Made by a program: the position numbers and the translations under genes. Of a stretch of DNA of 64,000 bases, positions 28,759-47,697 are shown piece after piece. Source of the stretch: Microlunatus speluncae (GTDB lineage Bacteria > Actinomycetota > Actinomycetes > Propionibacteriales > Propionibacteriaceae). The first letter of the stretch is position 1, and the number at the start of each line of letters is the position of its first letter. Location: the NCBI RefSeq assembly GCF_009299835.1, contig NZ_VKCZ01000003.1:372001-436000 (forward strand), given 5' to 3'. The notes beneath the pieces were generated by a model. The model did no database searches and was not told the origin of the DNA. It worked only from the letters and a program-made list of their open reading frames with translations.

Positions 28759-28771
28759 CCTTCGGGCCGGC

Positions 28772-29320: not shown

Positions 29321-29360
29321 TCCTTCACTTTCCCCTGGGCTCCGCAGCCCGCCGCTGACC

Positions 29361-29654: not shown

Positions 29655-29765
29655 TGTGACACTCTATTCACAAAGGTGGCAGGGGCCGAACACGGCCGCG
29701 TAACGGTTTAGGCGGCCCTTCCTCGGTGAGGTACTACCGTCTCGACGGGCGGATATGGAACTCTG

Positions 29766-31418: not shown

Positions 31419-31422
31419 CCCC

Positions 31423-31485
31423 CGCCGAGACGTCACTTATGCACGCGATTCTGCGGCGTGTCGGTGCACAAGTGACGTCTCGGCG
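31423..31485. repeat. Palindromic repeat, copy A
   Basis: 22-base arms 31423-31444 and 31464-31485 (outer CGCCGAGACGTCACTT) pair with a single mismatch around a 19-base loop. A degenerate copy in opposite orientation lies at 32128-32181. It may also terminate the HerA-like gene. Confidence 0.75.
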
Positions 31486-31506
31486 AGGGGGTTGAGGGGG
31501 TCTGGA

Positions 31507-32088
31507 GTGTCTGGTTCGGTGGTGAGGATCGCCGTGCCGACGGTCGACGATGCGGCACCGCCGGGGGAGCATGCGGCTATCGGTCCGAAACTCGACCAGC
31601 GGTGCGCGATGATCGCCCGGGCCGACGCACCCCGCGTTGCTCGGATCGGGGTCCGCGGGCTGTCCCTGGTGGATCATCCCGGTTGGTCAGCGAGCGAGTT
31701 GGCGGACGTGATCATCCGGACCGGCACCGATCGGCACGATCGTGAACGGCTGCTGCCGTTCACCGCGGGCTATGACGCCCTGGGGGTGGAGTTGCACGTC
31801 GAGCCGGCCGTTGTCACGGACACCGGGTTGCAGGCGCTCCGGCATGATCAATCCGTCTGTGGCCGGATGTTGTCCGACTTCCGGGTCGGGCCGCCGGTCG
31901 ACCGCGGTGCCCCGCCGATGCGGATCGATCTGATCACGCTGTACGACCTCGACCGGCTGGTGTCCGTGCCGGTGACGTACGCCGACGGACACACCGACCG
32001 GCTCACCTCGTACCGGCTCGGTGCTGATCCGCCGGCAGCGGTCATCGCCGTGTTGATCTTGGGCCGATCGTCTCCTTCTCGCCCATGA
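31507..32088 (+). CDS. Hypothetical protein between inverted repeat copies
   Basis: 193 residues, not recognised. The composition is alpha/beta and soluble, with VARIGVRGLSLVDHPGWSAS near the middle and RIDLITLYDLDRLVSVPVTY toward the end; there is no signal peptide, membrane helix or metal-binding motif. AGGGGG stands six bases before the GTG at 31507; a TTG at 31492 is an alternative. The codon third positions are G/C-rich as in real genes. It stands alone between two inverted copies of the same palindromic element, so it may be a cargo gene or simply a gene flanked by two terminators. Confidence 0.55.
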   Translation: MSGSVVRIAVPTVDDAAPPGEHAAIGPKLDQRCAMIARADAPRVARIGVRGLSLVDHPGWSASELADVIIRTGTDRHDRERLLPFTAGYDALGVELHVEPAVVTDTGLQALRHDQSVCGRMLSDFRVGPPVDRGAPPMRIDLITLYDLDRLVSVPVTYADGHTDRLTSYRLGADPPAAVIAVLILGRSSPSRP

Positions 32089-32127
32089 CAGTCCGACTTT
32101 CGGGAGTCCTTCCCGCGCCGCCGGTCC

Positions 32128-32181
32128 TGCCGAGACGTCACTTGTGCTCCGACACGCCGCAAAACCGCGTGCATTAGTGCC
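32128..32181. repeat. Palindromic repeat, copy B (inverted, degenerate)
   Basis: GCCGAGACGTCACTTGTGC (32129-32147), the following CCGACACGCCGCA and a downstream CGCGTGCAT match, nearly base for base, the reverse complement of copy A at 31423-31485. The far arm has decayed. It lies just past the stop of the heparinase gene. Confidence 0.7.
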
Positions 32182-32184
32182 GGG

Positions 32185-35100: not shown

Positions 35101-35388
35101 GGTGACGAGGTCCCACAACTTCGCGTCGCTGTGGGCGGTGAACTCGGCGGCCGCGGTCACCGCGGCGTCGCGCTGCTGGCGGGCCCAGCCGTACCGGTCG
35201 ATGTTGGCCCGGGCGTTGGCCACCCGCTCCGCGGTGTAGTACGTCGAGCGGGTCTTGCTCGGCGCCGTCGGGTCCGCGGCGGCGCGGAGGGCGGGCCAAC
35301 CGGCCAGCGGTGCGGCGAGGGAGAGGCCGGCGCCGGCCTGGAGCAGGCGGCGGCGGGCGATGGGAAGCGGGCGGGAATCAGTCGGCAT
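32185..35388 (-). CDS. Secreted heparinase II/III-type polysaccharide lyase
   Basis: 1067 residues. A twin-arginine signal (RRRLLQAGAGLSLAAPLAGW) predicts export folded through Tat. The first 550 residues are an (alpha/alpha) toroid with alginate-lyase-like features; the C-terminal half contains RSSGHGHRDTLNLGLHAAG and DLGYPE, the conserved heparinase II/III beta-sandwich motif. It probably degrades an acidic polysaccharide outside the cell; the substrate is not readable. AAGGA precedes the ATG. No transporter or regulator gene is adjacent. Confidence 0.85.
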   Translation of the reverse strand: MPTDSRPLPIARRRLLQAGAGLSLAAPLAGWPALRAAADPTAPSKTRSTYYTAERVANARANIDRYGWARQQRDAAVTAAAEFTAHSDAKLWDLVTPQSVSRSLGVLIRYRQRIKGSPGPEGAEINKFGNYPWRIDAIGDPWKLKSPVTGERYPSNDFASFYAAGLNEHGIFDVELARERGSQFLINELYPERGEGWGVDDGSGWTDPDGDTWTFVAYYHHWALWTTGGGQAFHGYLIRALNALRDAYLFTGQAEYAHKGLILLDRMADVWPDMDVTAYPWEGGFDNGDPAIHTAQGKVVNDIWETGIARVLLQAYDAFYPAIETDPAALEFIQAQAEKYKITTPKTTPAELRAHFEDHIVRLVYPAVQGSQIRGNTGMHQSVLALAAVIMDEEGTSKEWLDYVWQPGDLVKITDPAAPYGRRYEVTGGNMARVLIDQIDRDGWGNEAAPGYNSGWLGNFLQLADAVDGFQRYPDYDLFEHPKFLKMFTAIYPIAMLSRYTPSIGDSGNTGGPGIVGALATDLLGFGRTKDPGLAQLVHLRNGNTTTNLRGNIFEAEPEAVVAEIQAIVDDRGRFNPGTVHQPGYGFAALREGSGAAARGAWLYYGRSSGHGHRDTLNLGLHAAGMDLTPDLGYPEVTGLDPERQNWTMATVSHNTVVVDESSQAAAWVAVPRLIAGSDRVQLIEVDAPKAYARTELYRRTTTMITIDDQRSYLIDFFRVDGGDDHVFSFHGAKGTVTTNGLELVDQTSGSYAGPEVPFQDPKYNQNGKLGGFNYLNAVQRDASPASPYRIDWKIADNWNVHDQDPDAHLRLTMLSPVDDVALADGVPPRNKPGNPDKLRYLLAHRHGSDLKSNFVSVIEPTVGASMITASALVPVRTEDGDEVDHFEVAAVKIDFADGRTDYVVSAISDAKGYVIDGSLQFRGRFGVCTLRAGEPEHRFLHDCRRFGPNASAGPRAYSKLEGKVVDFTRELTMENTITVDVSGGKHGPRFDPKTLIGSYLHVQTDNVRNGTYKITGATMESINRFVLEIGDQTLIRSLLDPDDANGGYTYDLTPNTPFTLPLTETR

Positions 35389-35493
35389 GGCGCGTCCTTG
35401 GGCGAGGTCCGTGGTTCCCTGAAATTAAGCGCACGCCCCTAATAGCGCAATAGGTCTGTCACTAACTGCTCGCTGGCCGGGCTGAAAAGCAAC

Positions 35494-35520
35494 CTCCCCG
35501 GTCCTGGGTGGACCGGGGAG
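35494..35520 (-). terminator. Terminator of the small 69-residue gene
   Basis: CTCCCCGGTC and GACCGGGGAG form a perfect 10-bp stem with a 7-base loop. On the minus strand the stem is followed by GTTGCTTTT, a good intrinsic terminator. Confidence 0.8.
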
Positions 35521-35556
35521 ATTGGGGGGAGGGGTTTGAAGCTGGGCCGACGGTTG

Positions 35557-35766
35557 TCATGCCGTACGAGCGACCGGCAGGCGCCGACCGCGGGCGGAGC
35601 GGGCCTTCGCCGCCCGGCGCTCCTGGCGGCGCTCGGCCAGTGCTCGGTTGAGCTCGAACTTCTTGGCTGCGAGGTAGCTCAGCCGCATCGTCGAGTAGTT
35701 CAGCTGCGGATCCATCATCGACTGATGTCCGAGTTGGCCGTCGAGGTCGGCGAGGTGGAACGACAT
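35557..35766 (-). CDS. Small basic hypothetical protein
   Basis: 69 residues, not recognised. The N-terminal 25 residues are acidic/polar (SFHLADLDGQLGHQSMMDP), then a long basic helix runs from YSTMRLSYLAAKKFELNRAL to an arginine/alanine-rich tail. This suggests binding to nucleic acid or another acidic partner. AAGGAG lies seven bases before the ATG and an intrinsic terminator follows, so it is a self-contained transcription unit. A cluster of TGACGTC-type sites lies upstream. Confidence 0.7.
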   Translation of the reverse strand: MSFHLADLDGQLGHQSMMDPQLNYSTMRLSYLAAKKFELNRALAERRQERRAAKARSARGRRLPVARTA

Positions 35767-35810
35767 GGTGGGTCTCCTTGGTAGGTGGTGACATCAGTAT
35801 GGCACCAAGA

Positions 35811-35866
35811 TGACGTCATATACAAGTCATGTGACGTCGAGACGTGGACAAAGTGGAGTCACGTGA
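35811..35866. promoter_or_regulatory. Cluster of TGACGTC-type palindromes upstream of the small gene
   Basis: TGACGTCA (35811-35818), TGACGTC (35832-35838) and TCACGTGA (35859-35866) occur within 56 bp in an A/T-richer stretch 45-100 bases before the small gene's start. The regular spacing (21 and 27 bases) suggests binding of a dimeric regulator. The rest of 35867-35959 shows no gene. Confidence 0.5.
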
Positions 35867-35959
35867 CGCCAGGCAGGCGTCAGTGACGGTCGGGCAGTGT
35901 GGAAAGGGCGTGCGCCGAACCGACCGGCCGAAATCAGGCCGGGGCAGCGATGAGTGGCG

Positions 35960-36037
35960 TCAGCCGACGAACACGGAGGCCGAGGTGCCAGCGGTCACCG
36001 CGACGGCGACGGGGATCGTCTCGTAGTTCTTGATCAT
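35960..36037 (-). CDS. 25-residue hydrophobic peptide gene
   Basis: A tiny gene coding 25 residues, starting MIKNYETIP and ending SVFVG, with a valine/alanine/threonine-rich middle (VAVAVTAGTSAS) and no cysteine. The mRNA carries AGGAGGTG, a full match to the 16S anti-Shine-Dalgarno, nine bases before the ATG, and all codons but one end in G or C. A promoter-like TTGCGT-N18-TATGGT lies upstream. No modification enzyme or transporter is adjacent. It could be a secreted or membrane peptide, a modified-peptide precursor, or a leader peptide. I do not recognise the sequence. Confidence 0.72.
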   Translation of the reverse strand: MIKNYETIPVAVAVTAGTSASVFVG

Positions 36038-36087
36038 GATCTGGCACCTCCTCTCGTGTCGTCCGGGGCCTCTTCGAGGCGTCGCCA

Positions 36088-36117
36088 ACCATACGGAGCG
36101 GCGGAGATCCGACGCAA
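36088..36117 (-). promoter_or_regulatory. Promoter of the 25-residue peptide gene
   Basis: On the minus strand, TTGCGT (36117-36112), 18 bases, TATGGT (36093-36088). The expected 5' leader is about 45 bases and holds the strong AGGAGGTG site (36052-36045). Confidence 0.5.
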
Positions 36118-36193
36118 TCGATTTATCGGGCCGGGTTTTCGAAGGCCCCCACCGGGCCATCGGTGATGATCATGATCGTGGTTCAATGAGCCG

Positions 36194-36859
36194 GTGGTAG
36201 GCGAACCGGTGACGGCGGTGATCTTCGATTTCGACGGGCTGCTGATGGACACCGAGTCGACCTCGCTGCTGTCCTGGGAGTACGAGTGGAGCCAGTGGGG
36301 GCTCGAGCTCGACCGGGCCACCTTCTTCGCGCCGCACGGCGGTGACGTCAGCGATCAGCGGTACGCCAGTCTGGCGGGCGCGGTCGGACCGAGCTTCGAC
36401 CGAGAGCTCAGTCATCGGCGCCGGGAGACGTACCGCGACGACCTGCACCGCACGCTCGGGCTCTCGGCCGGGATCGGTGCCTGGCTGAGCGAAGCGGCCG
36501 AACTCGGGCTGCACCTCGCCGTGGCCTCGTCCTCACCGTTGGACTGGGTCACGGGACATCTCGCTCGGGCCGGAGTCGGTGACGCCTTCGAGGTCGTAGC
36601 CGCCGGGAACGAGGTCGATGATCACAAGCCCGCCCCCGATGTCTATCGGCTCGCACTGACCCGGTTGGGAATCCTGCCCGGCCATGGCGTCGCGGTCGAG
36701 GACACGCCGCACGGGGTCGAGGCGGCCCACCGGGCCGGGCTGCGGGCGATAGCGATTCCCAACCCACACGTCGATCCGACCCGGTGCGCCACAGCCGAGC
36801 TGGTCCTGGGCTCAGCGGCGGAGCTGACCCTGCGTGACGCCCTACGAAAGGTTGGCTGA
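36194..36859 (+). CDS. HAD-family hydrolase (beta-phosphoglucomutase/phosphatase type)
   Basis: 221 residues. Motif I is FDFDGLLMDTE (nucleophile and acid/base aspartates), motif II is VASSS, motif III is the lysine in DDHKPAPDVY and motif IV is VEDTPHGVEAA. The cap between motifs I and II is the helical C1 type, typical of sugar-phosphate phosphatases and beta-phosphoglucomutase. GTG 36194 is the likely start; GTG 36209 is possible. The following DUF402 gene starts at the very next base, so the two form an operon. Confidence 0.9.
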   Translation: MVGEPVTAVIFDFDGLLMDTESTSLLSWEYEWSQWGLELDRATFFAPHGGDVSDQRYASLAGAVGPSFDRELSHRRRETYRDDLHRTLGLSAGIGAWLSEAAELGLHLAVASSSPLDWVTGHLARAGVGDAFEVVAAGNEVDDHKPAPDVYRLALTRLGILPGHGVAVEDTPHGVEAAHRAGLRAIAIPNPHVDPTRCATAELVLGSAAELTLRDALRKVG

Positions 36860-37546
36860 GTGACGCTTCCCGTCTTTGCGCCTGGCTCGGACATCGTGAT
36901 CGAGGAGCGGTGGAAGGGCCGGCTGTGGAGCGCTCTGCCTCAGCGGGTCGTGGACAGCCGACCGGAGATGTTGATCACCTGGATGCCGGCCTGCGCGCGC
37001 TCTGTGTTCATGACCAACCGTGGATTGCCCGAGGCGGAGGGAATGACCCGGGACCAGCGCAAGCACGAGGCGCTACTGACCGGGGTGGCACGTCCGCTGG
37101 AGGCCGAGGACTGGCTGGACAAGGTCTATTACTTCCATCCCGGCCGGTGGTCCCGGATCAATCTGGCCTGGGATCCGGCCCGAGATCACGAGTTCCTCGG
37201 CTGGTACGTCAACTTCGAGCTGCCGCCGGTCGCCACGGAGGACGGGATCTGGGGCAAGGATCTGGTGCTGGACCTGTTCGTGTACGCAGACGGTCGCTGG
37301 GACTGGAAAGACGACGGGGAGTTCGACCGCGCCCTCGCTGACGGGCTGTTCGCGCCCGAGCTGCGGCCGATCCTGGAGCGCGAGGCCGAGCTCGTCCTGG
37401 CCGAGCGGGATCGCGGGACCGGAGCCTTCGATCCCGCGCTGCTGGAGCTGCGGCCGGAACCCGAGGCGGCCGCGGTCCTGCCGCCGGACTACGCGCCGGA
37501 CGGCGAGCGCTGGCGGCGAAGTTACCCGGTCGCGCCGATCCCCTGA
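36860..37546 (+). CDS. DUF402 (FomD-barrel-like) protein
   Basis: 228 residues. LITWMPACARSVFMTNR, then WYVNFELPPVATEDGIWGKD and LDLFVYADGRWDWKDDGEFD match the DUF402 beta-barrel; members with known activity (FomD, NtdP) hydrolyse nucleotidyl or nucleoside phosphates using divalent metal bound by the conserved acidic DxD/E residues seen here. The GTG start follows the HAD stop with no gap, so the two are probably co-translated and may act on related phosphorylated compounds. Confidence 0.85.
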   Translation: MTLPVFAPGSDIVIEERWKGRLWSALPQRVVDSRPEMLITWMPACARSVFMTNRGLPEAEGMTRDQRKHEALLTGVARPLEAEDWLDKVYYFHPGRWSRINLAWDPARDHEFLGWYVNFELPPVATEDGIWGKDLVLDLFVYADGRWDWKDDGEFDRALADGLFAPELRPILEREAELVLAERDRGTGAFDPALLELRPEPEAAAVLPPDYAPDGERWRRSYPVAPIP

Positions 37547-37573
37547 GCATGGCCCGGCCCGGACGGTACCCGG

Positions 37574-38140
37574 CTAGCGGAACCCGGGGGAGGGCGGCTG
37601 CTGCCAGGTGCCCGGCGGCTGACCTTGGGGACCCGGCTGGGTCAGCGGCGCTTGCGGATGTGGCGGCCGTGGTGCCTGATGACCGGCCTGCTGATGCGGC
37701 GGCAGGGTGCCCTGGACCAGATTGGCGGGCGGTCGCCGATCGGACGGCGGCGGCTGGCTCGGCGACGCGGGCTGTCCGTTGGTCTCGATCGCCTGGCGGA
37801 TCGATTGCGGAGTGGCTCCCGCCTCGCCTTCCCCGAGCGGCCGCAACACGACAGCAGTCCCGTAGGCGCAGGCTTCGAGCAGATACTCGGCGAGCTGGCT
37901 GAGGTCGTAGCGCATGCCGACGACCGCGTTCGCCCCGCGGCTGGAGGCTTCGGTCCAGAGCCGGTTCATGGCCTCGTTGCGACACCCGTGGACGATGTCG
38001 GAGATGGTGGCGGGGGTGGCGGAGCCGTACATTCCGCCGGCGCCGAGCCCGTAACTGCTGTACGCGATCGCCCCCATCGTTTCGCCGAGCACCTCGACGA
38101 TCTGGTAGCCGGCGACCTCATCCGTCGTGACGATGATCAT
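37574..38140 (-). CDS. YbjQ/UPF0145-family protein with proline-rich tail
   Basis: 188 residues. The first 105 residues are a YbjQ (DUF74) domain: VTTDEVAGYQIVEVLGETMG, then IVHGCRNEAMNRLWTEASSR and GANAVVGMRYDLS. It forms pentameric barrels in known structures but the function is unknown. The remaining 80 residues are rich in proline and glutamine (QPPPSDRRPP), probably disordered, an addition absent from the usual family. Confidence 0.88.
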   Translation of the reverse strand: MIIVTTDEVAGYQIVEVLGETMGAIAYSSYGLGAGGMYGSATPATISDIVHGCRNEAMNRLWTEASSRGANAVVGMRYDLSQLAEYLLEACAYGTAVVLRPLGEGEAGATPQSIRQAIETNGQPASPSQPPPSDRRPPANLVQGTLPPHQQAGHQAPRPPHPQAPLTQPGPQGQPPGTWQQPPSPGFR

Positions 38141-38157
38141 GCGGCCATTCCATCAGG

Positions 38158-38628
38158 TCAGCGGCTCGATCGCGACCGGCCGCCGACCCAGCGCACGATC
38201 AGCGCGACGACCTCGATGATCAGTGCCGGTCCGCAGACCAGCGACCACAGGCCGGGGCCGAGCGGGCGCAGCAGCAGCGCCGGATCGGTGATCGCGATGC
38301 CGACCAGCTGGAGCATCAGCAGCAGCCCGCCCAGCCCGACCAGGACGAGCGTGACCCAGCGCGGCCGGCTGCTGCCGGCGATCCGCCAGGCGCCGTACGC
38401 GAGCAGGAATCCGATCACCGAGATGCCGAGGCCGAAGATCAGATAGTCGGCCCACGGACCGTACCCGAGCTGGGCGAAGCCCATGGTGTTCACGATGGCG
38501 TGCACCACCCCGAGGATGACGACGAAGATCGCGCCGACGCGGCCGACGCGGCCGGCGATGGTGGCAAGCGGCACGGTCGGGCCGGCCCGGTGGTCGAGAC
38601 CGCGATCGGCGGTGGAGGTTGTGGTCAT
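38158..38628 (-). CDS. Small four-helix membrane protein
   Basis: 156 residues with four hydrophobic segments: VGAIFVVILGVVHAIVNTMG, ADYLIFGLGISVIGFLLAYG, WVTLVLVGLGGLLLMLQLVG and LVCGPALIIEVVALIVRWVG. The family is not recognised. The start MTTTSTADRG at 38628 is preferred over one 13 codons upstream, but neither has a good ribosome site. It lies 17 bases before the YbjQ gene on the same strand. Confidence 0.7.
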   Translation of the reverse strand: MTTTSTADRGLDHRAGPTVPLATIAGRVGRVGAIFVVILGVVHAIVNTMGFAQLGYGPWADYLIFGLGISVIGFLLAYGAWRIAGSSRPRWVTLVLVGLGGLLLMLQLVGIAITDPALLLRPLGPGLWSLVCGPALIIEVVALIVRWVGGRSRSSR

Positions 38629-38763
38629 GGGTTCAAGCCTGGGCCGGAGGCCGGCGGCGCGGGTCACCCGCGCGGGGGAAGTTCACTCGGCGCGGAGGGG
38701 AGATCGGGTCCAGCCAATCGATCGGGGAGTGAGCGAGGTGCCCCGGCGTCGGACAATGGGCCG

Positions 38764-39318
38764 ATGAACGCGACGCCGACCCTGCTCCTGATGGCCGGCC
38801 TGCCCGGTGCCGGCAAGAGCACGCTCGCCGGCTCACTGGGTCGGGCGCTGGGCTGGCCGGTGCTCGACAAGGACACGGTGAAGACGACTCTGTTGCAGCT
38901 CGGCGCCGAGGAGTCGCTGGCCGGGCAGGCGTCGTATGAGGTGCTGTTCGATCTTGCCCGTGATCTTGTGGTCACGCAGCGGCTGTCGATCATCCTGGAC
39001 TGGCCGACCTTCTATCCGCGGGTGATCGAGGTGTGCGGGGCCATTGCCGCTGACGCCGACGGCGCACTCCGGGTCGTCTTCTGCGCCGCCGATCGCGAGA
39101 CCCGGGACCGGCGCACCCGTGACCGGGTCAGCCGCATCTCGCAGTTCGGCCATGCCGGCCGGCCGACCACGACCCGGCCGGACTCCGACGGCGACGGCCG
39201 CGAGCTGTTCCCGTTCCTGCCGGCCGAGACCCTGACCGTGATCACCGAAGGGCCGGTCGGCGCCCTGGTGGAAGCTTTGCTGAGCAAGCTCAAGATATCG
39301 GTCAATCGTGCCGGGTAG
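38764..39318 (+). CDS. P-loop kinase-like AAA protein
   Basis: 184 residues of the Zeta-toxin/gluconate-kinase-like P-loop group. Walker A is LPGAGKST near residue 14, then WPVLDKDTVKTTL (substrate-side DKD) and VVFCAADRETRDRRTRDR with the LID arginines. It probably phosphorylates a small metabolite or antibiotic. GACAAT lies six bases before the ATG, so the start is leaderless; a longer open frame upstream is non-coding. It is divergent from the membrane-protein gene. Confidence 0.87.
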   Translation: MNATPTLLLMAGLPGAGKSTLAGSLGRALGWPVLDKDTVKTTLLQLGAEESLAGQASYEVLFDLARDLVVTQRLSIILDWPTFYPRVIEVCGAIAADADGALRVVFCAADRETRDRRTRDRVSRISQFGHAGRPTTTRPDSDGDGRELFPFLPAETLTVITEGPVGALVEALLSKLKISVNRAG

Positions 39319-39399
39319 TCGCGGCCAAACTGACCGGCATCCTGGGCGAACTTCCCTGAACCCGCCGCGGACCCGGCCTTGTCCGCGTACCGTCGGCCC

Positions 39400-39690
39400 A
39401 TGAGCGAACCCGTGACGATCCCGACCGAGTGGGAGTGCCTGCTTGAGCGTCGCGGCGTGTTCGGGCGGAAGACGATCTTGATGTTCGTGGTCGGCCGGAT
39501 CGCCTTCCAGGTCGGCGGAAGGGGTCGCCGGGGCTGGGTGACCAGAACGGTCGCCGACACGCCGGCCGACGCAGTCCTGGCACTCCAGGAAATGCGGCAG
39601 AGCTATCTGTTCGACCGCTACGTCGAGATCCCGTGGGACAACGACCTGGTGCCCGCCCTTCCGGACGAGATGCTCGATCCCGCCCGGTGA
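39400..39690 (+). CDS. Small conserved-looking hypothetical protein
   Basis: 96 residues, not recognised. TIPTEWECLLERRGVFGRKT leads into a beta-rich core (ILMFVVGRIAFQVGG), and an amphipathic helix follows (ADAVLALQEMRQSYLFDRYV). It is soluble, without signal peptide. TACCGT lies six bases before the ATG, supporting this start and a leaderless mRNA. It is convergent with the carboxylesterase. Confidence 0.65.
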   Translation: MSEPVTIPTEWECLLERRGVFGRKTILMFVVGRIAFQVGGRGRRGWVTRTVADTPADAVLALQEMRQSYLFDRYVEIPWDNDLVPALPDEMLDPAR

Positions 39691-39700
39691 TCAGGCCACC

Positions 39701-41308
39701 TCACAACGCGGCCCAGAACTGGCAGCGGTGCTCTGCGGCGTAGCTCGTCGGCCGGATCCGGTCGGCTGACAGCCCGAGCACAGTGCCGCCGGTGTTGAAC
39801 GCCGGCCATGCGGGGAGTCCGGGTCGATTCGGCTTGCCGGTGTGGGCGAAGGACGACCAGTAGTCGATCATGGTCCGGCTGAGTCGCTGCTGCTGCGCGG
39901 TCAGCGGCGGGAACTGGCTGTTCCGGATCGAGACGTCGAACAGGAACGGCAGATCCCAACTGTGGTAGGCGCCATAGAGGGTCCCGTCGATCGGCCCGGC
40001 CTCCTCGCGGAACTCGTAGGCGTAGACCGGACCGTGCCGTCGTGCCGACTGAGCCGTGGTCAGCGCGGGGCAGGCGTAGTTCCGGTCGGTGAGGACGGTG
40101 GCCAGCGCGAGCGCCGGGCTGTCGAACTCGTTGGCCGGATACTCCGCCAGGACGGCGTCGGAGTCGGCACCGAGCAGGGTGCGGAGCAGCAGCGCGTACC
40201 GGTCTTCGGTCAGGTCCGGCAGCGCGTTGAGCACCACGCCGCGCGCCTCGTGGCGGGTGCTGCCGACGAGCAGCGGGACGTCGGCGGTGAGGCCGTAATG
40301 CAATGCGGTGGCTGGCTGCCAGGGCAGGTACGGCGTGCCCGCCACCGGTCCCCAGGCGGCATCGCGGCGATCACCGAGCGGATGGCCGACGCCGCGGAGG
40401 GTGCGGAGGAGGTCAGCCAGCGGCACCCTGCGCAGGCAGGCCGTGACGTCGCGGTGGCTGCCGGCGTCGGCGCAGCCGACCTCCTCGATCGCCCGGTCGC
40501 CCTTGGCGTCGGCGGTGATCTTGGTCATCACCTCGGTGCTGCAGGCGCCGCTCTGAGTGATCGCGCGATGGAACAGCCCGCGGGAGCCGGGCGAGGCGAG
40601 CTGGGTGCAGACGCTGCGCGCGCCGGAGGACTGGCCGGCCAGCGTGATCTTGCCCGGGTCGCCACCGAAGCGGTCGATGTTGCGGCGCACCCAGCGCAGC
40701 GCCTCGGCCTGGTCGAGCAGGCCGTAGTTGCCGGACACCGTGCCCTCGGCGTCGAGCACGGGATTGGCCAGGAAGCCGAGCGCTCCGAGTCGGTAGTTGA
40801 TCGTGACCACGACGACGTCCCCATGGACAGCGAGCCGGGCGCCGTCGTATTCGGCGGCCGCGCCGGAGGTCAGCTCACCGCCGTGCAACCAGACGACGAC
40901 CGGCAGTCGACCCCGACGGTCGGTGCGGGGGCGGACGACATCCAGGGTGAGGCAGTCCTCGAGGCCGATGATCAGCTCGGTCCCGTCGTTGGCCGGTTGG
41001 GGACAAGGATCGGCAGGTACGGTCGCGTCGCGTACGCCTGACCAGGCGGCGGGCGGAGCCGGTCGCCGCCAGCGACGCTCGCCGATCGGCGGGGACGCGT
41101 ACGGGATCTTGGTGAACCGTACGTGATCTTCGCCGACCTCGCCGCGCAACCACCCGGTGTCCACGCGGACCAGACCTTGGCCCTGGGCTTCGGCCGCCGG
41201 CGCCGGCAACACGACGAGAATCGCGGCCAGGGCGGCGGAGGTGATCGCCAGCAGCAGCTCGCGTGCCCGTCCGGTCAGGCCTGGTTGGGCAACGGTCTTG
41301 ATCAACAT
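39701..41308 (-). CDS. Secreted type-B carboxylesterase
   Basis: 535 residues with a signal peptide (hydrophobic LLLAITSAALAAILVVLPAP, cleavage near AEA-QG). The alpha/beta-hydrolase triad is visible: serine in LAGQSSGARS (about 226), glutamate in GSTRHEARG (about 353) and histidine in GAYHSWDLPF (about 447). The oxyanion motif is VWLHGGEL. It hydrolyses carboxylic esters outside the cell; the natural substrate is unknown. GGGGGAC precedes the ATG at 41308. Confidence 0.9.
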   Translation of the reverse strand: MLIKTVAQPGLTGRARELLLAITSAALAAILVVLPAPAAEAQGQGLVRVDTGWLRGEVGEDHVRFTKIPYASPPIGERRWRRPAPPAAWSGVRDATVPADPCPQPANDGTELIIGLEDCLTLDVVRPRTDRRGRLPVVVWLHGGELTSGAAAEYDGARLAVHGDVVVVTINYRLGALGFLANPVLDAEGTVSGNYGLLDQAEALRWVRRNIDRFGGDPGKITLAGQSSGARSVCTQLASPGSRGLFHRAITQSGACSTEVMTKITADAKGDRAIEEVGCADAGSHRDVTACLRRVPLADLLRTLRGVGHPLGDRRDAAWGPVAGTPYLPWQPATALHYGLTADVPLLVGSTRHEARGVVLNALPDLTEDRYALLLRTLLGADSDAVLAEYPANEFDSPALALATVLTDRNYACPALTTAQSARRHGPVYAYEFREEAGPIDGTLYGAYHSWDLPFLFDVSIRNSQFPPLTAQQQRLSRTMIDYWSSFAHTGKPNRPGLPAWPAFNTGGTVLGLSADRIRPTSYAAEHRCQFWAAL

Positions 41309-41416
41309 GGCGTCCCCCTGAGTCTCGATTCCTGACAGCCACGCTACGCAGCCGGAACCGGCCCGAACAGTGACAATGATCATCAAACCCACGGAGTCGA
41401 GGAGCGGGTCTTGTCC

Positions 41417-42247
41417 TCAGGTTGCGTCGTCGAGCAGCTTCGAAGCGACGACCAGGTCGGCGAATTGTCGGTCGGGATTCGCCGCGCTCATGATCACCAC
41501 GCCGGCACCGCGTCGAGATACCGGCCGAGCCAGTCGCGGAACGGGATCTGGTCCGACCACCAACAGTGCCCTGCGCCCGTCGATCGGGGCTGCGGTCACG
41601 TTCTGCCGGCTGTAGTCGCCGTGCAGCAACGCCGGTTCGAACGGCCGGGCCAGAGTGTCGGCGGTGGCGTCGAGCACGCCGACCACCCAGGCCCGGTCCT
41701 CGGTGCTGATGGCGCGGGCGCGGCCCAGGACCTCCAGCGTGGTGTCCCGGACCCAGTCGGCCCAGCTCGGTTGAAAGGGAACGACGGCACCGGTCTCGGG
41801 TTCCCAGCGACCGGCTGTCTCGCCGTGGACCGCGCTGATCATGGTCGTTGCCTGGCCGAGGGCGTGCGCGAGCTCCGCCCGTTCGGTCGCGGTGAGCGCG
41901 GCGTAGACCTGCTCGTCGGCGACCTGGCGCCCATCCAGTCGCCCCATGATCACGTACGGCCAGCCGAACAGCTCGGTCGACGGCTCGTAGCAGTACGGCC
42001 AGGGCGCCGGCAGCTGGCAGTGATCATGAAACACCCGGGCGAAGTAAGCCTCCTTGGCGAACTGGCCGGGCAGCAGCGGGTTGCCGCGCAACACATAGCG
42101 GCCCCGATCGGTGTCCAGGAAGGCGTTCTGGCCGAAGTTTCCGGTCGTCGCCGGCTCGGCCCGAACGAGCCGGCCGAGGTCGAACCGATCCCGCGCCTGC
42201 TGCAACTGACCCGGAGCCAGTGAGCCGAGGCGGGCGGTGGTCAGCAC
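41417..42247 (-). CDS. APH-family phosphotransferase with atypical C-terminus
   Basis: 276 residues. The N-lobe (GQNAFLDTDRGRYVLRGNPL) and GWPYVIMGRLDG match aminoglycoside/choline-kinase-like enzymes, and the catalytic loop LLHGDYSRQNV is intact. After it, where the family needs the metal-binding aspartate (usually VxxVIDWE or similar), this frame reads LLVVGPDPVPRLARP and then degenerates. In a shifted frame the same DNA reads WWSDQIPFRDWLGRYLDAVP, which looks more protein-like. I suspect a frameshift or sequencing error near 41560, or a truncated, inactive gene. Confidence 0.7.
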   Translation of the reverse strand: MLTTARLGSLAPGQLQQARDRFDLGRLVRAEPATTGNFGQNAFLDTDRGRYVLRGNPLLPGQFAKEAYFARVFHDHCQLPAPWPYCYEPSTELFGWPYVIMGRLDGRQVADEQVYAALTATERAELAHALGQATTMISAVHGETAGRWEPETGAVVPFQPSWADWVRDTTLEVLGRARAISTEDRAWVVGVLDATADTLARPFEPALLHGDYSRQNVTAAPIDGRRALLVVGPDPVPRLARPVSRRGAGVVIMSAANPDRQFADLVVASKLLDDAT

Positions 42248-42304
42248 GGCAGGAGCGTACGGGACGCGGCCTCCCGTCGAGACCCATTTTCAGTGGTCGG
42301 CGAA

Positions 42305-42344
42305 TATACGATGTACAGTAGCAGAATGAACTATACGTCGTATA
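42305..42344 (+). promoter_or_regulatory. Twin TATAC-N3-GTAYA operators around the DoxX start
   Basis: TATACGATGTACA (42305-42317) and TATACGTCGTATA (42332-42344) are two near-palindromes 27 bases apart. The first overlaps the -10 box TACAGT (42314-42319); the second covers codons 3-6 of the gene. This is a typical arrangement for repression by a dimeric regulator, which is not encoded nearby. Confidence 0.55.
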
Positions 42345-42766
42345 GCCCATCGAAGAACGACTCGTCCGCCCGGCGGCGGGCCGGCAACGTCGTCCTCTGG
42401 ATCCTCCAGGTGATCGCCGCACTGGGATTTCTGCTGGCGGCGCTGGGCAAGCTCACCGGGGACCCGGTGTCCGTCGCGACCTTCGACTCCCTCGGCTGGG
42501 GCCCGCCGCTGCGCTACCTGCTGGCCGGCCTCGAACTGCTCGGATCCGTTGCCCTGTTCATTCCGCGACTGACCGGCCCGGCCGCGACCGCCTTCGTCGC
42601 GCTGACGATCGGAGCCATCGCGGTGCAGCTCGGCACCGGCGGAAGTGTCGCTATGGCCGTGGCGTTGTTGATCATCTCGGCGATCGTCGCCTGGGGCCGG
42701 CGGCGCAGCACGATCGCGCTGATCGCTGCCGTACGAGAGCGTCGGCCGGCGCGCCGCGGCGACTGA
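42326..42766 (+). CDS. DoxX-family membrane protein
   Basis: 146 residues with four membrane helices: VVLWILQVIAALGFLLAALG, YLLAGLELLGSVALFIPRL, ATAFVALTIGAIAVQLGTGG and VAMAVALLIISAIVAWGRR. The GKLTGDP segment after helix one and the GLELLGSVAL helix are characteristic of DoxX-like proteins, linked to redox or quinone stress. TACAGT stands six bases before the ATG, so the mRNA is leaderless, with operators on either side. Confidence 0.83.
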   Translation: MNYTSYSPSKNDSSARRRAGNVVLWILQVIAALGFLLAALGKLTGDPVSVATFDSLGWGPPLRYLLAGLELLGSVALFIPRLTGPAATAFVALTIGAIAVQLGTGGSVAMAVALLIISAIVAWGRRRSTIALIAAVRERRPARRGD

Positions 42767-42939
42767 CTGTCGGTGCGGCGTTCTAAGGTAAGGGCTCCGG
42801 CGTGGCCAACGCCGCACCTCCATGGCCCGACCCCAGCGCGGACCCTCGCGGAGGCAAAGGGACCCGGTCTCAGGTCGCTGTCAATCGACCATGCGTCTCG
42901 TGCGCGTTGCTGGGGAATCGGCGAGGCGCGGGAGTCCGG

Positions 42940-43914
42940 ATGACAGCCAACAGGCGTTTCAAGAAGCGGATACGGGCCCGTGCGGCACGGACCGGTGAGT
43001 CCTACACCGCTGCCCTCCGGCACTTCCGAACCGACGAAGGAGTGCCCATGTCCACCAGCCAACCCGTACGCACCGGGACCGGAGCCGTCCTGCTGCGGCT
43101 CGCCGTCGCCCGGACCACCCTGCGCGAGGACCCCGGAGATCCGGCCGGCTTCCGGGCCGCCGGCGATGAGGTCCGGATGCTGCTCGGTCGAGCGAAGGAG
43201 CAGGGGGCCCGGCTCGTGCAGTTCCAGGAAGGAACCCTCTGCTTCCCGGCCAAACGGCGGCTCTCGACTGACCCCGACCGGATGGCCGAGGCCGACTGGA
43301 GCAGGTTCAACTGGGACGCGCTCGCCGCGGAGCTCCGATCGATCGTGGCGACCGCCGCTCGGCTGAGGATCTGGACCGTGCTCGGTGTGCCCCGGGCGAG
43401 GGTCGGTGCGCGGCCGTACACGGGACTGCTGGTGATCGACGACACCGGCGCCACGGCCGGCTACTACCGGGAGCGGATCCTGTCTCGGACCAAGGCCGAC
43501 TTTCTTTACCAGGCTGGGAAAGACGGCCTGGTGATCGAGGTCGACGGCGTTCGGATCGGGCTCGCCTCCGGGGTCGAGGGTCTGTTCTCCCGGGTCTCCG
43601 AGCAGTACGCGGAGCAGGCCGCCGACCTGGTGCTGGTCTCGACCGGCGGCCGCGGCGAAGCGAAGCAGGGTCGGTCGCTGCTCGAGCACACGATCGCCCA
43701 GGCTCGCGGCAACCTGCTCTGGCTCGGCGCCGCTTCCGGTGGTGATCAGGACCCGGCCGGGGGTGTGGTCTCGCCCGGTGGCGACTGGCTGGCCCGGCTC
43801 CCGACCGGCGACGGCCCGAGCCTGGCCGTGGCGGACGTGACCGATTCGCTGGACCCGACCGCCAAGGCCTGGCATCGGGAGGGCGCGCGTCGACTCGCGT
43901 ACACAGGCAGCTAG
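42940..43914 (+). CDS. Nitrilase-fold protein lacking catalytic Lys and Cys, with RHH-like N-terminus
   Basis: 324 residues. The first 35 residues (NRRFKKRIRARAARTGESYT) resemble a short ribbon-helix-helix-like segment. The rest follows the carbon-nitrogen hydrolase fold: QFQEGTLCFP holds the catalytic glutamate, but the lysine position reads GYYRERIL (K to E) and the cysteine position reads IGLASGVEGLF (C to G). It is therefore predicted to be catalytically dead and may bind a ligand or act as a sensor. A 20-bp hairpin terminator follows. The start at 42940 is uncertain; an open frame extends upstream. Confidence 0.75.
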   Translation: MTANRRFKKRIRARAARTGESYTAALRHFRTDEGVPMSTSQPVRTGTGAVLLRLAVARTTLREDPGDPAGFRAAGDEVRMLLGRAKEQGARLVQFQEGTLCFPAKRRLSTDPDRMAEADWSRFNWDALAAELRSIVATAARLRIWTVLGVPRARVGARPYTGLLVIDDTGATAGYYRERILSRTKADFLYQAGKDGLVIEVDGVRIGLASGVEGLFSRVSEQYAEQAADLVLVSTGGRGEAKQGRSLLEHTIAQARGNLLWLGAASGGDQDPAGGVVSPGGDWLARLPTGDGPSLAVADVTDSLDPTAKAWHREGARRLAYTGS

Positions 43915-43920
43915 CCACGA

Positions 43921-43967
43921 CGGCCGGGCGGCGGATCGACACGCGTCGTCGATCCGCCGCTCGGCCG
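43921..43967 (+). terminator. 20-bp hairpin after the nitrilase-like gene
   Basis: Arms 43921-43940 and 43948-43967 pair with one mismatch around a 7-base loop (ACGCGTC), starting seven bases after the stop. There is no U-run. Confidence 0.7.
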
Positions 43968-44014
43968 AGGCTCGACAGACGGAGGTCGAGCGGTGAAGGA
44001 TCAACGTCTGGCCC

Positions 44015-44803
44015 ATGGATCTGGAGGCGGCGGTGGCCCATCTGCTCGCGGACGAAGACGGCATGACGGTCTACTTCGGCTGTCCCGACCAGGTCGACGG
44101 TCGGGACGGGAAGGCGGCGCTGGCCGATTTCTACGGCGCCCTGCTCGGCTGGCCGCGCCGGGATGCCTGGGGGACCCCGTTCCTGTCCAAGGACCCCAAG
44201 TTCCGGATCGGCTTCGACCGCGACGGCTGGTCGGACCTTCGTCCGCCGCGCTGGGGCGATCCGGAGCATCCACAACAGCTCCACTTCGACTTCGCTGTGC
44301 CGGAGCTGGCCCCCGCCGACGAGCGCGCCGCGGCGGCCGGGGCGACCCTGCTGCACGACGAAGCCGGCCACCGCAGTTACGCCGATCCGGTCGGGCACGC
44401 GTTCTGTCTCTACCCGGATCCGCGCCGAGCCGAGGCCGGGCCGGCGGTCGCCCGGCTGGTGTACGACTGCTTCAGCCCACGCTCCCTGGCAACCTTCTAC
44501 CAGGCCTTCCTCGGCGTCGCGGACCGACTCGAGGACTCACCGAACCGGGTAGTGATCAACTTGGCCGACGACGAGTTGCCCGACCTGGCCTTCCACCAGG
44601 CCCAGGTCCCCGCACCCCGCTGGCCCGATCCCGCCTATCCGGCCCAACTGCACGCCGACTACCGCTTCAGTGTTGATCATGAACTGCCGCACTTCCAGAC
44701 CCCGGCCGGCCGAGCCGCCATCCAACGCGCCGAACAGCTCGGTGCCATCTACCTGCAGCACGTCGTCTACGCCGACCCGGCCGGACACCCGTTCTGCTTC
44801 TGA
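44015..44803 (+). CDS. VOC (glyoxalase/bleomycin-resistance fold) protein, two modules
   Basis: 262 residues with two VOC half-domains. The first includes LADFYGALLGW and QLHFDFAVPELAPADERAAA ending in ADPVGHAFCLYP; the second repeats as TFYQAFLGVADRL and ADPAGHPFCF. The DPxGHPFCF endings supply a typical metal-side residue. Functions range from dioxygenases to binding proteins, and this one cannot be assigned. The start is uncertain; a methionine at MTVYFGCP is possible. Confidence 0.85.
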   Translation: MDLEAAVAHLLADEDGMTVYFGCPDQVDGRDGKAALADFYGALLGWPRRDAWGTPFLSKDPKFRIGFDRDGWSDLRPPRWGDPEHPQQLHFDFAVPELAPADERAAAAGATLLHDEAGHRSYADPVGHAFCLYPDPRRAEAGPAVARLVYDCFSPRSLATFYQAFLGVADRLEDSPNRVVINLADDELPDLAFHQAQVPAPRWPDPAYPAQLHADYRFSVDHELPHFQTPAGRAAIQRAEQLGAIYLQHVVYADPAGHPFCF

Positions 44804-44808
44804 GCTCG

Positions 44809-47499
44809 CTAGCGAGTCTTGGTCCACCCATCGACTCGATCACGATGCGCGGTGATCCACTGCTCAGCCACCTTGGCCGGCTCAACTCCGTCGTCGCAGG
44901 CCTTGATGAAGCCGTTGACGTCGTGGGTGTCGAAGCCGATCCGGGCCAGGATCCGGTCCGCCGTCGGCGACAGCGCCGCGACCTCGGCGGATCGCGCGAC
45001 CGAGGCGTCCACCTCCTTGGCGGCGGTCTCGCCGGGCACGTCACCGAGCCGGCGCAGCGCGTACTTCTCGTGAATGCCATCGGGCACATAGCCGTAGAAC
45101 AGTGATGGTCGACCGGTCTTGGCGTCCTCGGCCAGCTTCGCCTTGAAGATCGTTTCCGAATAGGCCTCGCCGATCATCGTCGGAACTCCGTTGTCGAGCC
45201 AGGTCTTGAGGCTTTCGGTGGTCGACCAGCCGCGCGCCCCGATCCACATCTCCCCGCGCCCGTCGCCGGTGGTGTCGAACAGAGCCGCCACCGCCGGATC
45301 CGTCAGGGAGTTCAGATCCTTGACGAGACCGCGCGTCCGCTGGTCGTCCAGGATGTAGATGCCCTGGGTTGCCGCATAGTGATGATCACTGAGCCGTACG
45401 GCCCCGGACTCGATCGCTTCGCGGACTGCGATGTTCTGATTCTGCAGCCACAGATCGGGATGGACCTGGATCTTGGCGTCCTTCTTGATCAACTCCGAGA
45501 CCGCGGTGGTGTGGTCGACCTTCTCGACCGTCACGCTGATGTCCTGGGCCTCGAGCGTTGATTTGATGATCTCGGCCGCGACCGTGGCGCCGGCCCATCC
45601 CGGATCGGCGATGACGATGGTCCGCGCGTCGCCGCCCGGGTCGAGCGAACCCTGGCTCTCGCCGGGCCGGGGTGCGGCGACCCCACCGGCGCCCGGTCCG
45701 GCGACCGAGGAGATGGGCAGCACGATCACCGCCAAGATCACCAACGCGGCGGTGCCCAGATAGAAGGAGTTGAACAGCCGGCTCCCGGGAAAGTTCCGGA
45801 CGACCTCGATCCGCCCGTCCGCGGTCTCGCGGCGTACGCCCCGCTTGAACTCGGCACCGGAAAGCTGTCCGGCCTCGACGACATCCGCGGGAACGTAGTA
45901 CGGCTTCCCGATCTCGCTGAAGCCCTGTTCCAGCCGGCGGAGCTGGTTGCGGAAGCCGTGGAGATTGTTCCGGTCGTAGTCGCGGATCGTGAAGATCGCC
46001 AGGAACGCGCCGGCAGCGAAGATGATCGAACCGGCCTGGCCGAACGGCGACACGTCGCGCAGCAGGAGGACGAAGACGACACTGCCGATCCCGGTCAACC
46101 AGAGCGCGGCGGTTTCGCCGATGGAGAGCCGATCCTGGTGCATCGCCAGCCAGGAACTGAAGGCGTCCCGGGCGTCCTTGCGCGCAGCCGCGTCCTGAGC
46201 CGGACCGTCCGCGAGCAGCGCCCGCAGCTTGGCCGTCTTGCTGTCCTGCTGTTCGCGATCGGTCTCGAACTCGAGATCCATCAGGCTGCGCAGGAGCTTG
46301 TCGGCCAGTTCCTTGCCGGCCGAGCCGTCGACGGCGATCAGGCGGCTGACCAGCACGGCCCGCGCATCCACCTCCTGGGTCCGGCGTCCGGCCGCGCGGG
46401 CCAGGATGAAACCGGCCAAGATCGCGAACAGGCCGGTGAGCGCCGCCGCCATCTCGGGGGCAGAGCCGATCGTCCCCGTCGGCAGGATCTGTGACGCCAA
46501 CGCCACGTACACGGTGGCGATCAAGGTCAGGGAGAGCGCGTTGGTCGAGCGTTGACTCGCGTGCAGCGTGAGATTGGAGAAGAGGATCAGCACCAGACCG
46601 ACGATCGCGATCGGGCGGACCGGCTCCTGGAACAGGACGTGCAGCAGGATGACCGACACGGCCGGCGAGAAGTACGGCAGCGACGAGAGGGTTAGCGACT
46701 TGTATTCCTGGAAGGCCCAGGTCCACATCACTTCGGCGACGAGGTAGGTGCCGATCCCGATGATGGCGCACACCAACAGGACCTGGGCGTCGAAGGCGTA
46801 GAACCGCAGCCGGTGACCGGCGAGGAAGAGGACCAGCAGCACGGCGAGCAGCGAGACGACATTGGCGATCGAGATCGAATAGAAGGTGGCCAGCGGCTTC
46901 GACCTGACCCGCGTCTCGAGGGCGCTCGTCGCCTTGAACGCGAACGGGAGATAGAGGCCGCTGCCGATCGCGGCGACGAACGCCCAGACGATCTCGCCGG
47001 ACGCCTCGCCCCGCGGCGACGCCCCCACGTTGGCGACACCGATCGCGACAGCACCGAGGAACGAAGCGCCGATCAGCAACCACTGATTGGGTTTGAGCTT
47101 TCCGGCCGTTCCCGGCGAGATGAGCCGGATCGCGATGGCCGCGATCAGCGGCCAGGTGAAGGCGATGACGGTGGCGTCGGCCTTGGCCGTGCCGTACAGC
47201 GCCCGGTAGAAGCCGTAGTACCACATGGCCAGGAACAGCCCGGACAGTCCAGCCCAGAGGATCGCCTTGCCCGTCGTCCGGCCGCCCCGCACCACGGCGA
47301 CGGAGCGCTTCCAGAAGATTGCGGCAACGAGCAGGCTGGTCAGGACGGAGATCGCTCCGGCCACGACGTACACCTCGGCGTAGTCACCGCGATCACCGAT
47401 GACGGAGATCAGGACCGGCTTCAGGGACCAGAACGCGACGGCCGCGACAGCAGCGATCGTGATGGCCGCAGTCGTCGCTTTCCCGGCAGAACGATTCAT
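44809..47499 (-). CDS. Fusion of an EamA-type transporter with a glycine-betaine-type (OpuAC) binding domain
   Basis: 896 residues. Residues 1-310 form about ten helices of an EamA/DMT drug-metabolite transporter (AFWSLKPVLISVI at the start, LPYFSPAVSVILLHVLF at the end of the repeat). Residues 315-600 hold further helices and two cytoplasmic segments of unknown type (ELADKLLRSLMDLEFETDRE). After a last helix (LVILAVIVLPISS) residues 625-820 form a complete OpuAC/ProX-like quaternary-amine-binding domain (VIADPGWAGATVAAEIIKST; IQVHPDLWLQNQNIAV; GDGRGEMWIGARGWSTTES). The protein probably binds and moves a quaternary amine. No ABC ATPase is adjacent. An upstream start at 47586 is possible. Confidence 0.85.
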   Translation of the reverse strand: MNRSAGKATTAAITIAAVAAVAFWSLKPVLISVIGDRGDYAEVYVVAGAISVLTSLLVAAIFWKRSVAVVRGGRTTGKAILWAGLSGLFLAMWYYGFYRALYGTAKADATVIAFTWPLIAAIAIRLISPGTAGKLKPNQWLLIGASFLGAVAIGVANVGASPRGEASGEIVWAFVAAIGSGLYLPFAFKATSALETRVRSKPLATFYSISIANVVSLLAVLLVLFLAGHRLRFYAFDAQVLLVCAIIGIGTYLVAEVMWTWAFQEYKSLTLSSLPYFSPAVSVILLHVLFQEPVRPIAIVGLVLILFSNLTLHASQRSTNALSLTLIATVYVALASQILPTGTIGSAPEMAAALTGLFAILAGFILARAAGRRTQEVDARAVLVSRLIAVDGSAGKELADKLLRSLMDLEFETDREQQDSKTAKLRALLADGPAQDAAARKDARDAFSSWLAMHQDRLSIGETAALWLTGIGSVVFVLLLRDVSPFGQAGSIIFAAGAFLAIFTIRDYDRNNLHGFRNQLRRLEQGFSEIGKPYYVPADVVEAGQLSGAEFKRGVRRETADGRIEVVRNFPGSRLFNSFYLGTAALVILAVIVLPISSVAGPGAGGVAAPRPGESQGSLDPGGDARTIVIADPGWAGATVAAEIIKSTLEAQDISVTVEKVDHTTAVSELIKKDAKIQVHPDLWLQNQNIAVREAIESGAVRLSDHHYAATQGIYILDDQRTRGLVKDLNSLTDPAVAALFDTTGDGRGEMWIGARGWSTTESLKTWLDNGVPTMIGEAYSETIFKAKLAEDAKTGRPSLFYGYVPDGIHEKYALRRLGDVPGETAAKEVDASVARSAEVAALSPTADRILARIGFDTHDVNGFIKACDDGVEPAKVAEQWITAHRDRVDGWTKTR

Positions 47500-47612
47500 C
47501 CGCACCCGACTCCCAGCGCTCGTCCGTCGCGCCGTCGTCAGCCGACGAACCGTCCGCTCGGGCGGCGCCGCCTGCGAGTCTGACATGCCCGCAAGGTCAT
47601 GCACCCAATCAG

Positions 47613-47697
47613 CGGAGGATAGGGGATTCGAACCCCTGAGGGCTTGCACCCAACCCGCTTTCCAAGCGAGCGCCATAGGCCACTAGGCGAATCCTCC
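47613..47697 (-). tRNA. tRNA-Ser (anticodon GGA)
   Basis: A class II tRNA read on the minus strand. The acceptor GGAGGAT pairs with ATCCTCC, the anticodon loop TTGGAAA (anticodon GGA) is closed by CGCT/AGCG, there is a long variable arm, and the T-arm contains GGGGTTCGAATCCCC. The discriminator is G with no encoded CCA. Confidence 0.97.

Follow-up and report, generated by a model that had tools for sequence, protein, structure and literature searches.

An EamA/DMT transporter part and an OpuAC-type substrate-binding domain in a single polypeptide of Microlunatus speluncae: a candidate receptor-tethered secondary transporter

Here, we describe a gene of Microlunatus speluncae (NCBI RefSeq assembly GCF_009299835.1, contig NZ_VKCZ01000003.1) that encodes a transporter part, a multi-helix middle module and a binding domain in one chain. 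It lies in a 64,000-nucleotide stretch (positions 372,001 to 436,000 of the contig, forward strand), called the window below, and coordinates count from the window's first letter. An earlier reading of the letters, here the original prediction, had placed an EamA/DMT transporter and an OpuAC domain in one polypeptide at this site and had suggested either an unusual secondary transporter carrying its own receptor for a quaternary amine or a sensor using transporter parts. The minus strand of 44809-47499 is one open reading frame (ORF) of 896 residues with no internal stops, while stops interrupt the plus strand across the same interval, and Pfam matches both domains in the translation, which bears out the single polypeptide. 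Upstream of 47499 the frame stays open for 59 more codons and reaches an ATG at 47676; this ATG lies within a tRNA-Ser gene (47612-47697), which makes the ATG at 47499 the more plausible start. G+C content at third codon positions (GC3) is 0.880, inside the range of 0.833-0.930 found for the ten neighbours measured, and a composition anomaly was rejected since the gene resembles its neighbours in this respect.

Six short back-translated peptides, used as queries against a species-genome collection (84,980 species by the collection's description), led to 21 loci. Twenty match the SBP (substrate-binding protein) region only, and one, L005, in a metagenome-assembled genome (MAG) of Brevibacterium senegalense, is full-length, matching residues 12-892 with 63% identity in the best segment and 62% in a further alignment. 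A frameshift joining two genes, an assembly chimera or a decaying gene might be suspected from the small number of relatives and from the assembly's contamination estimate of 7.77%. Such an artefact, of which the original prediction had named the frameshift as its possible undoing, is ruled out and its probability is next to nil, because L005, which is independent of this assembly, encodes an 898-residue protein with the parts in identical order. Differences between the two genes also pile up at third codon positions (0.22, 0.13 and 0.39 at first, second and third positions in the EamA part; 0.37, 0.26 and 0.53 in the SBP).

The OpuAC-type SBP domain occupies residues 625-896 (44812-45627, minus strand, as are all parts of the gene given below). 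Pfam OpuAC (PF04069) matches residues 627-883 (E=2.4e-25; 90 bits, cut-off 21.2; profile positions 2-256 of 257), and the NCBIfam models for ProX (E=3.4e-14) and for a choline-binding protein (E=9.2e-6) match as well, both under their cut-offs. A full-chain AlphaFold2 model has a mean pLDDT of 60.7; most ten-residue blocks of the SBP reach 79-94, and the weak blocks of this domain (621-630, 661-690 and 821-830) lie at 54-64. The SBP model was compared with solved structures using Foldseek and VIA-align, the latter matching it to TmoX (Z 27.1; root mean square deviation (rmsd) 2.5 over 266 residues), ProX (Z 26.0), lactococcal OpuAC (Z 25.4), ChoX (Z 25.2) and DmpX (Z 23.9). Across the five, rmsd is 2.4-2.7 over 251-272 residues, and all entries are ligand-bound. 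The model thereby predicts the two-lobed SBP fold, with residues 623-895 lying on TmoX and 621-896 on ProX. When the whole model was searched, the VIA-align matches listed fell in the SBP, one of them extending back to residue 493.

Four aromatic residues, W635 (45595-45597), W684 (45448-45450), W758 (45226-45228) and Y804 (45088-45090), are invariant in all 16 sequences of an SBP alignment made of the fusion protein, the Brevibacterium protein and 14 SBP-only loci (six of the 20 were left out). Aligned with ProX, W758 and Y804 fall at W140 and W188, and in a profile alignment W684 falls at W65; we take these ProX residues to be those that form its cage. Judged by sequence only, the domain therefore has the aromatic-cage residues expected for cation binding, in keeping with the ligand class first proposed. 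Of three plasmid loci examined with solo SBP relatives, two have genes for an ABC ATPase and an ABC permease next to the SBP gene; one of these also has agmatinase and amidinotransferase genes, and the other a trimethylamine methyltransferase-family gene. At the third (Phyllobacterium zundukense, L059 4920-5891), the immediate neighbours of the OpuAC-type SBP gene are a response regulator and an L,D-transpeptidase, one on each side, and the genes listed for about 5 kb around it include no ABC genes. Because the neighbours of solo SBP genes are so varied, the ligand of the fusion protein could be betaine, choline or a guanidinium-type cation.

The EamA/DMT transporter part comprises residues 1-312 (46564-47499). 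Pfam EamA matches it in two stretches, the best at residues 170-308 (E=3.7e-6) with 27.7 bits, marginally below the cut-off of 28.2; the Brevibacterium homologue scores 31.4 bits, above it, and a Tsukamurella relative 25.8 bits. Together with the OpuAC match, these hidden Markov model searches agree with the domains named by the original prediction. Residues 1-312 show nine hydropathy peaks, and about ten helices in the low-confidence AlphaFold2 model. Searched against solved structures, this part found no match as a single sequence and chance matches only as a profile. In an alignment with E. coli YddG (19% identity), W24 corresponds to W17 and Y94 to Y85, and Y183 stands opposite W169. From helix positions, we assume Y85 and W169 of E. 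coli YddG to be the sites numbered Tyr78 and Trp163 in the published aromatic box. That box is given as Trp17, Tyr78 and Trp163 for YddG (PDB 5I20) and LicB (PMC10654088), and LicB is described as the choline permease of the Lic-1 pathway, which imports choline (PMC10434233). A quaternary-amine receptor joined to a DMT carrier that keeps this box would be chemically coherent, although the alignment behind the mapping is weak.

The closest stand-alone relative found for the EamA part is a 313-residue protein, 50.5% identical, on plasmid NZ_LR134455.1 of Tsukamurella tyrosinosolvens (L026 5959-6900). Its gene is annotated as hypothetical, its neighbours include helicase and FtsK-type genes, and no SBP gene is among the neighbours listed. 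This relative matches the model of the aromatic amino acid exporter YddG (E=1.2e-5), a match that the fusion protein does not share; the fusion protein matches the 2A78 transporter model (E=5.5e-4). Both scores are far below cut-off. As the nearest named models they nevertheless lend something to the idea of a receptor-controlled exporter or exchanger, in which the EamA part exports a metabolite and the SBP senses it, re-captures it or supplies the exchange substrate, and DMT exchangers do exist, such as GsTPT2 and the nucleotide-sugar transporter mCST (PMC6508934). We consider this decidedly unlikely, given that SBPs of this fold come from uptake systems, that the matched structures are parts of ABC importers or derived sensors, and that an outer receptor brings no obvious gain to outward transport. 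Import through a receptor-fed carrier is the reading pursued here.

Between the two named domains lies a middle region of about 300 residues (316-612), in which five transmembrane (TM) helices are predicted along with two charged segments, 94 and 75 residues long, on the cytoplasmic side. This comes close to the extra region of some 280 residues with two cytoplasmic segments that had been predicted. By hydropathy, it comprises a first 2-TM hairpin (TM11-12, residues 321-367; 46399-46539), a first cytoplasmic helical segment (residues 368-461; 46117-46398; 16 Lys+Arg, 16 Asp+Glu), a second 2-TM hairpin (TM13-14, residues 462-505; 45985-46116), a second cytoplasmic segment (residues 506-580; 45760-45984; 13 Lys+Arg, 10 Asp+Glu) and the TM15 anchor (residues 581-599; 45703-45759), followed by an extracytoplasmic linker rich in Gly, Ala and Pro (residues 600-624; 45628-45702). 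The short loops 340-348 and 481-487 carry 0 and 1 Lys+Arg, versus 16 and 13 in segments 368-461 and 506-580, and from this distribution the two long segments are predicted inside and the C-terminal domain outside. In the full-length model the first cytoplasmic segment is helical, with pLDDT 62-87 over residues 371-460; a separate AlphaFold model of the middle region has a mean pLDDT of 47.8.

The two hairpins resemble each other and appear to be related, which would make this a duplicated 2-TM-hairpin module. Their local alignment scores 50, against a mean of 27.2 in 1000 local shuffles, and is reached by 2 of the 1000; the same repeat in the Brevibacterium homologue also scores 50 (shuffle mean 25.8, reached by 1 in 1000), in a test that controls hydrophobic composition only in part. 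No Pfam, NCBIfam or PHROGs family matches the middle region above cut-off, so that at family level it did not turn out to be a known permease type, an outcome that would have undone the original prediction. A possible assignment to SLATT or S_4TM, at only E=0.13 in the homologue and with no match in the fusion protein, was taken as chance and rejected, as were matches to RseC_MucC, spore_yabQ and Glyoxalase_6 below cut-off.

Identity to the Brevibacterium homologue is 73% in the EamA part, 63% in the middle region and 51% in the SBP. By smaller stretches, it is 82% for the first hairpin (over 316-372) and 94%, the highest measured, for the second (461-508), versus 45% and 51% for the first and second cytoplasmic segments (373-460 and 509-576); TM15 with the linker is 49% identical. 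By this pairwise comparison the two middle hairpins and the EamA part are the most constrained parts of the protein.

These figures bear on whether the protein might be a sensor or transceptor, in which the presence of a betaine-like ligand outside, picked up by the OpuAC domain, would be relayed by the helices of the EamA part and the middle region to the cytoplasmic segments and on to a partner, transport being lost or incidental. The presence of two cytoplasmic segments, the first predicted to be helical, would suit such a role, and these segments are conserved no less than the SBP; at three loci OpuAC is joined to a GluR0-like channel, again a membrane protein outside the ABC class (see below), and no recognisable osmolyte-uptake or betaine-metabolism gene adjoins the fusion gene. 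On the other side, Pfam and NCBIfam searches found no kinase, cyclase, phosphatase or other known output domain, the cytoplasmic segments are far less conserved than the hairpins, and the EamA part retains transport-type aromatics, if the weak alignment is followed. We consider a sensor unlikely. Of the two, a secondary transporter with its own receptor is the somewhat better fit, because the hairpins are the most conserved of the stretches measured, the cytoplasmic segments much less so, and an output domain was not found.

With about even confidence, we propose that the fusion protein works as a secondary transporter with its receptor tethered in the same chain, and that it most likely imports a quaternary amine of the betaine or choline type or a similar small cation. 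The open frame, the domains, the SBP fold, the topology pattern, the conserved aromatics, the architecture shared with a second organism and the lack of an ABC partner in the scanned ORFs are what the analysis shows; from there on we infer the kind of ligand, the direction and coupling of transport and what the middle module does. TM15 and the flexible linker would keep the C-terminal OpuAC domain at the outer face, where it would capture the ligand and close on it through an aromatic cage of W684, W758, Y804 and possibly W635. The loaded domain would then dock on the membrane part and pass the ligand to the EamA/DMT domain, which would carry it across in alternating-access fashion with the help of an aromatic box of its own (W24, Y94 and Y183), powered by an ion gradient or by exchange and not by ATP. 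The middle module, with its two related hairpins and cytoplasmic helices, would be a docking or scaffold part, perhaps like the TRAP Q subunit. The fuller description, in which a DMT (non-elevator) fold, an ABC-type quaternary-amine receptor and a so far undescribed duplicated 2-TM-hairpin docking module would form an SBP-dependent secondary transporter in one chain, is offered tentatively, at somewhat less than an even chance.

Several observations weigh against this proposal. The EamA score of the fusion protein is 0.5 bits below the Pfam cut-off, and the mapping of the aromatic box is soft, because identity to E. coli YddG is just 19%, hhalign of a three-sequence EamA alignment against YddG gave no meaningful match, and the equivalence of the Y85 and W169 sites is assumed. 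YddG, the DMT protein used for comparison, is itself an exporter, and the lone Tsukamurella protein, 50% identical, indicates that the EamA part can occur without a receptor. W684 sits in a model block of pLDDT 62, and the EamA part, as well as the middle region apart from 371-460, is mostly below 60. Solo SBP relatives stand in ABC operons at two of three loci, with neighbours pointing to varied substrates. The conservation argument rests on one pair, only two full-length members having been found, and within this pair the SBP (51%) and TM15 with the linker (49%) are kept no better than the cytoplasmic segments (45% and 51%). On balance, the original prediction is partly supported in its interpretation: its reading of the domains and of the fusion has stood up, and no ABC partner turned up in the scanned ORFs.

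The full-length fusion is very rare, with two cases in all genome searches, the gene described here and that of Brevibacterium. The genome sets overlap, and few candidates were scored per genome, so weak relatives may be missed. The gene's own genome holds the sole full-length copy among 146 relatives (three with any match) and among 391 genomes of the order (again three with any match). A search of 396 genomes of the phylum gave 29 with any match, namely the gene's own, 2 EamA-only and 26 SBP-only. With the EamA part as query (E<=1e-15), only its own genome matched among 394 of the class, and with the middle region, only its own among 20 of the genus. The Brevibacterium MAG is likewise the sole full-length case among 60 of its family, where one other genome has a 44-residue SBP match, and the sole match among 396 of its order to query residues 1-612. 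No relative was found in viral contigs, where 103, 16 and 61 stretches matched patterns and none was confirmed; matches occur in 3 of 50,697 phage records (SBP only). Among 72,556 plasmid records, 20 match, 19 of them in the SBP only and 1 in EamA only, and none matched when the middle region was the sole query. None of these collections held a full-length relative, and an origin in a virus, phage or plasmid was rejected.

Genes around the fusion gene encode an APH-type kinase, DoxX, a carbon-nitrogen hydrolase, and glyoxalase-like, DUF1707, AlkZ-like, SDR and MFS proteins. The original prediction had seen no ABC ATPase nearby, and indeed a scan of 26 further ORFs of the window, all lying between 27 and 64 kb and most of them longer than 220 residues, turned up neither an ABC ATPase nor an ABC permease; the fusion protein has no BPD_transp permease domain in Pfam. 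The genome as a whole has OpuAC matches at five places including the fusion gene, and one of the others adjoins a BPD_transp_1 ABC permease gene. The protein could then be an independent transporter with a passive tethered binding domain, for example one that serves a separate ABC system or buffers ligand, and the Tsukamurella EamA relative, if functional, would work without an SBP. We regard this as very unlikely, the fusion and the middle module having been retained together in two distant lineages, and keep to the receptor-tethered importer.

The tRNA-Ser(gga) gene (47612-47697, minus strand), 112 bp upstream of the start codon, marks the edge of a stretch that differs in congeners (28756-47611 of the window). 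Six congeneric stretches of 10-15 kb behind the tRNA-Ser had no tblastn match (E<=1e-10) to the fusion gene or to its glyoxalase, hydrolase, DoxX, APH and esterase neighbours; five of the six have a DUF1707 gene before the tRNA, as the window does. In three of the six, a Na+/H+-exchanger gene resembling the one at 27244-28755 follows the tRNA at a distance of 3-6 kb; in the window the distance is 19 kb. The variable stretch behind the tRNA and the patchy distribution suggest that the fusion gene was horizontally acquired. No repeat of the tRNA 3' end (attachment site) was found in the window beyond the tRNA itself, and no integrase family among the window ORFs scanned. An AAA_33 or zeta-toxin-like kinase gene lies at 38500-39318 (plus strand).

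In three genomes of the same phylum, an OpuAC domain (142-164 bits) precedes a GluR0-like ligand-gated K+ channel in one frame (L030 1417-3495, plus strand; L031 52-3342, minus strand; L032 1129-3558, plus strand), with SBP_bac_3, Ion_trans_2 and Lig_chan matches and a TVGYGD filter. Each of these loci has a second OpuAC-type match 1.8-2.5 kb off on the opposite strand. The OpuAC domain takes a position in these proteins that resembles the amino-terminal domain of eukaryotic glutamate receptors. The word OpuAC is absent from the main text of a 2010 survey of prokaryotic glutamate receptors (PMC2950845).

Among the papers listed in searches of the open-licence literature, none was seen to describe an EamA-OpuAC fusion, subscription journals lying mostly outside this scope. 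If the proposal is true, the protein would be a novel ATP-free pairing of a catching receptor with a transporter, and its single chain would conveniently fix the receptor:carrier ratio at 1:1. It would also be receptor-fed secondary transport without an elevator carrier, since DMT proteins, to our knowledge, are not elevators. PMC6508934 describes DMT proteins as carriers that work by alternating access and have symmetry-related repeats. The fusion would be a test case for the suggestion in PMC12344293 that a feature of the elevator mechanism may be needed for SBP-dependent secondary transport, a suggestion that new classes would test. According to the same source, the only secondary carriers known to work with a soluble SBP before TAXI-GltS were TRAP and TT (PMC12344293).

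Among known systems, ProX, TmoX, ChoX and DmpX share the SBP fold and the aromatic cage positions but are separate binding proteins of ABC importers. LicB and YddG share the EamA/DMT class and, by weak alignment, aromatics in TM1, TM3 and TM6, and LicB imports choline; both are stand-alone (293 residues in E. coli YddG), with neither SBP nor middle module. In OpuA of Lactococcus lactis, also of a Gram-positive lineage, a quaternary-amine-type SBP is likewise carried by a membrane protein, as a substrate-binding domain fused to an ABC permease, whereas the membrane part here is EamA/DMT instead of BPD_transp and an ATPase was not found in the scanned ORFs. TRAP transporters (DctP/QM, SiaPQM) resemble the fusion in the ATP-independent, SBP-dependent logic proposed for it and in an accessory membrane part beside the carrier, but their SBP and membrane families are unrelated to those here, and Pfam and NCBIfam searches found no DctQ/DctM, GltS or TctA membrane family in the fusion protein. 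Similar to the fusion, TAXI-GltS (Bordetella pertussis BP0403/GltS and Lachnospiraceae fusions) joins an SBP to an ordinary secondary transporter, occurs as rare single-polypeptide fusions, and has no ABC or TRAP partner; BP0403 has an extra domain of unclear role (PMC12344293). TAXI-GltS differs in its N-terminal TAXI-type SBP, in its substrate, glutamate, and in a GltS part proposed to be an elevator (PMC12344293), in contrast to the C-terminal OpuAC-type SBP, DMT-type membrane part and additional multi-helix module of the fusion described here, which we file apart from TRAP, TTT, TAXI-GltS and OpuA.

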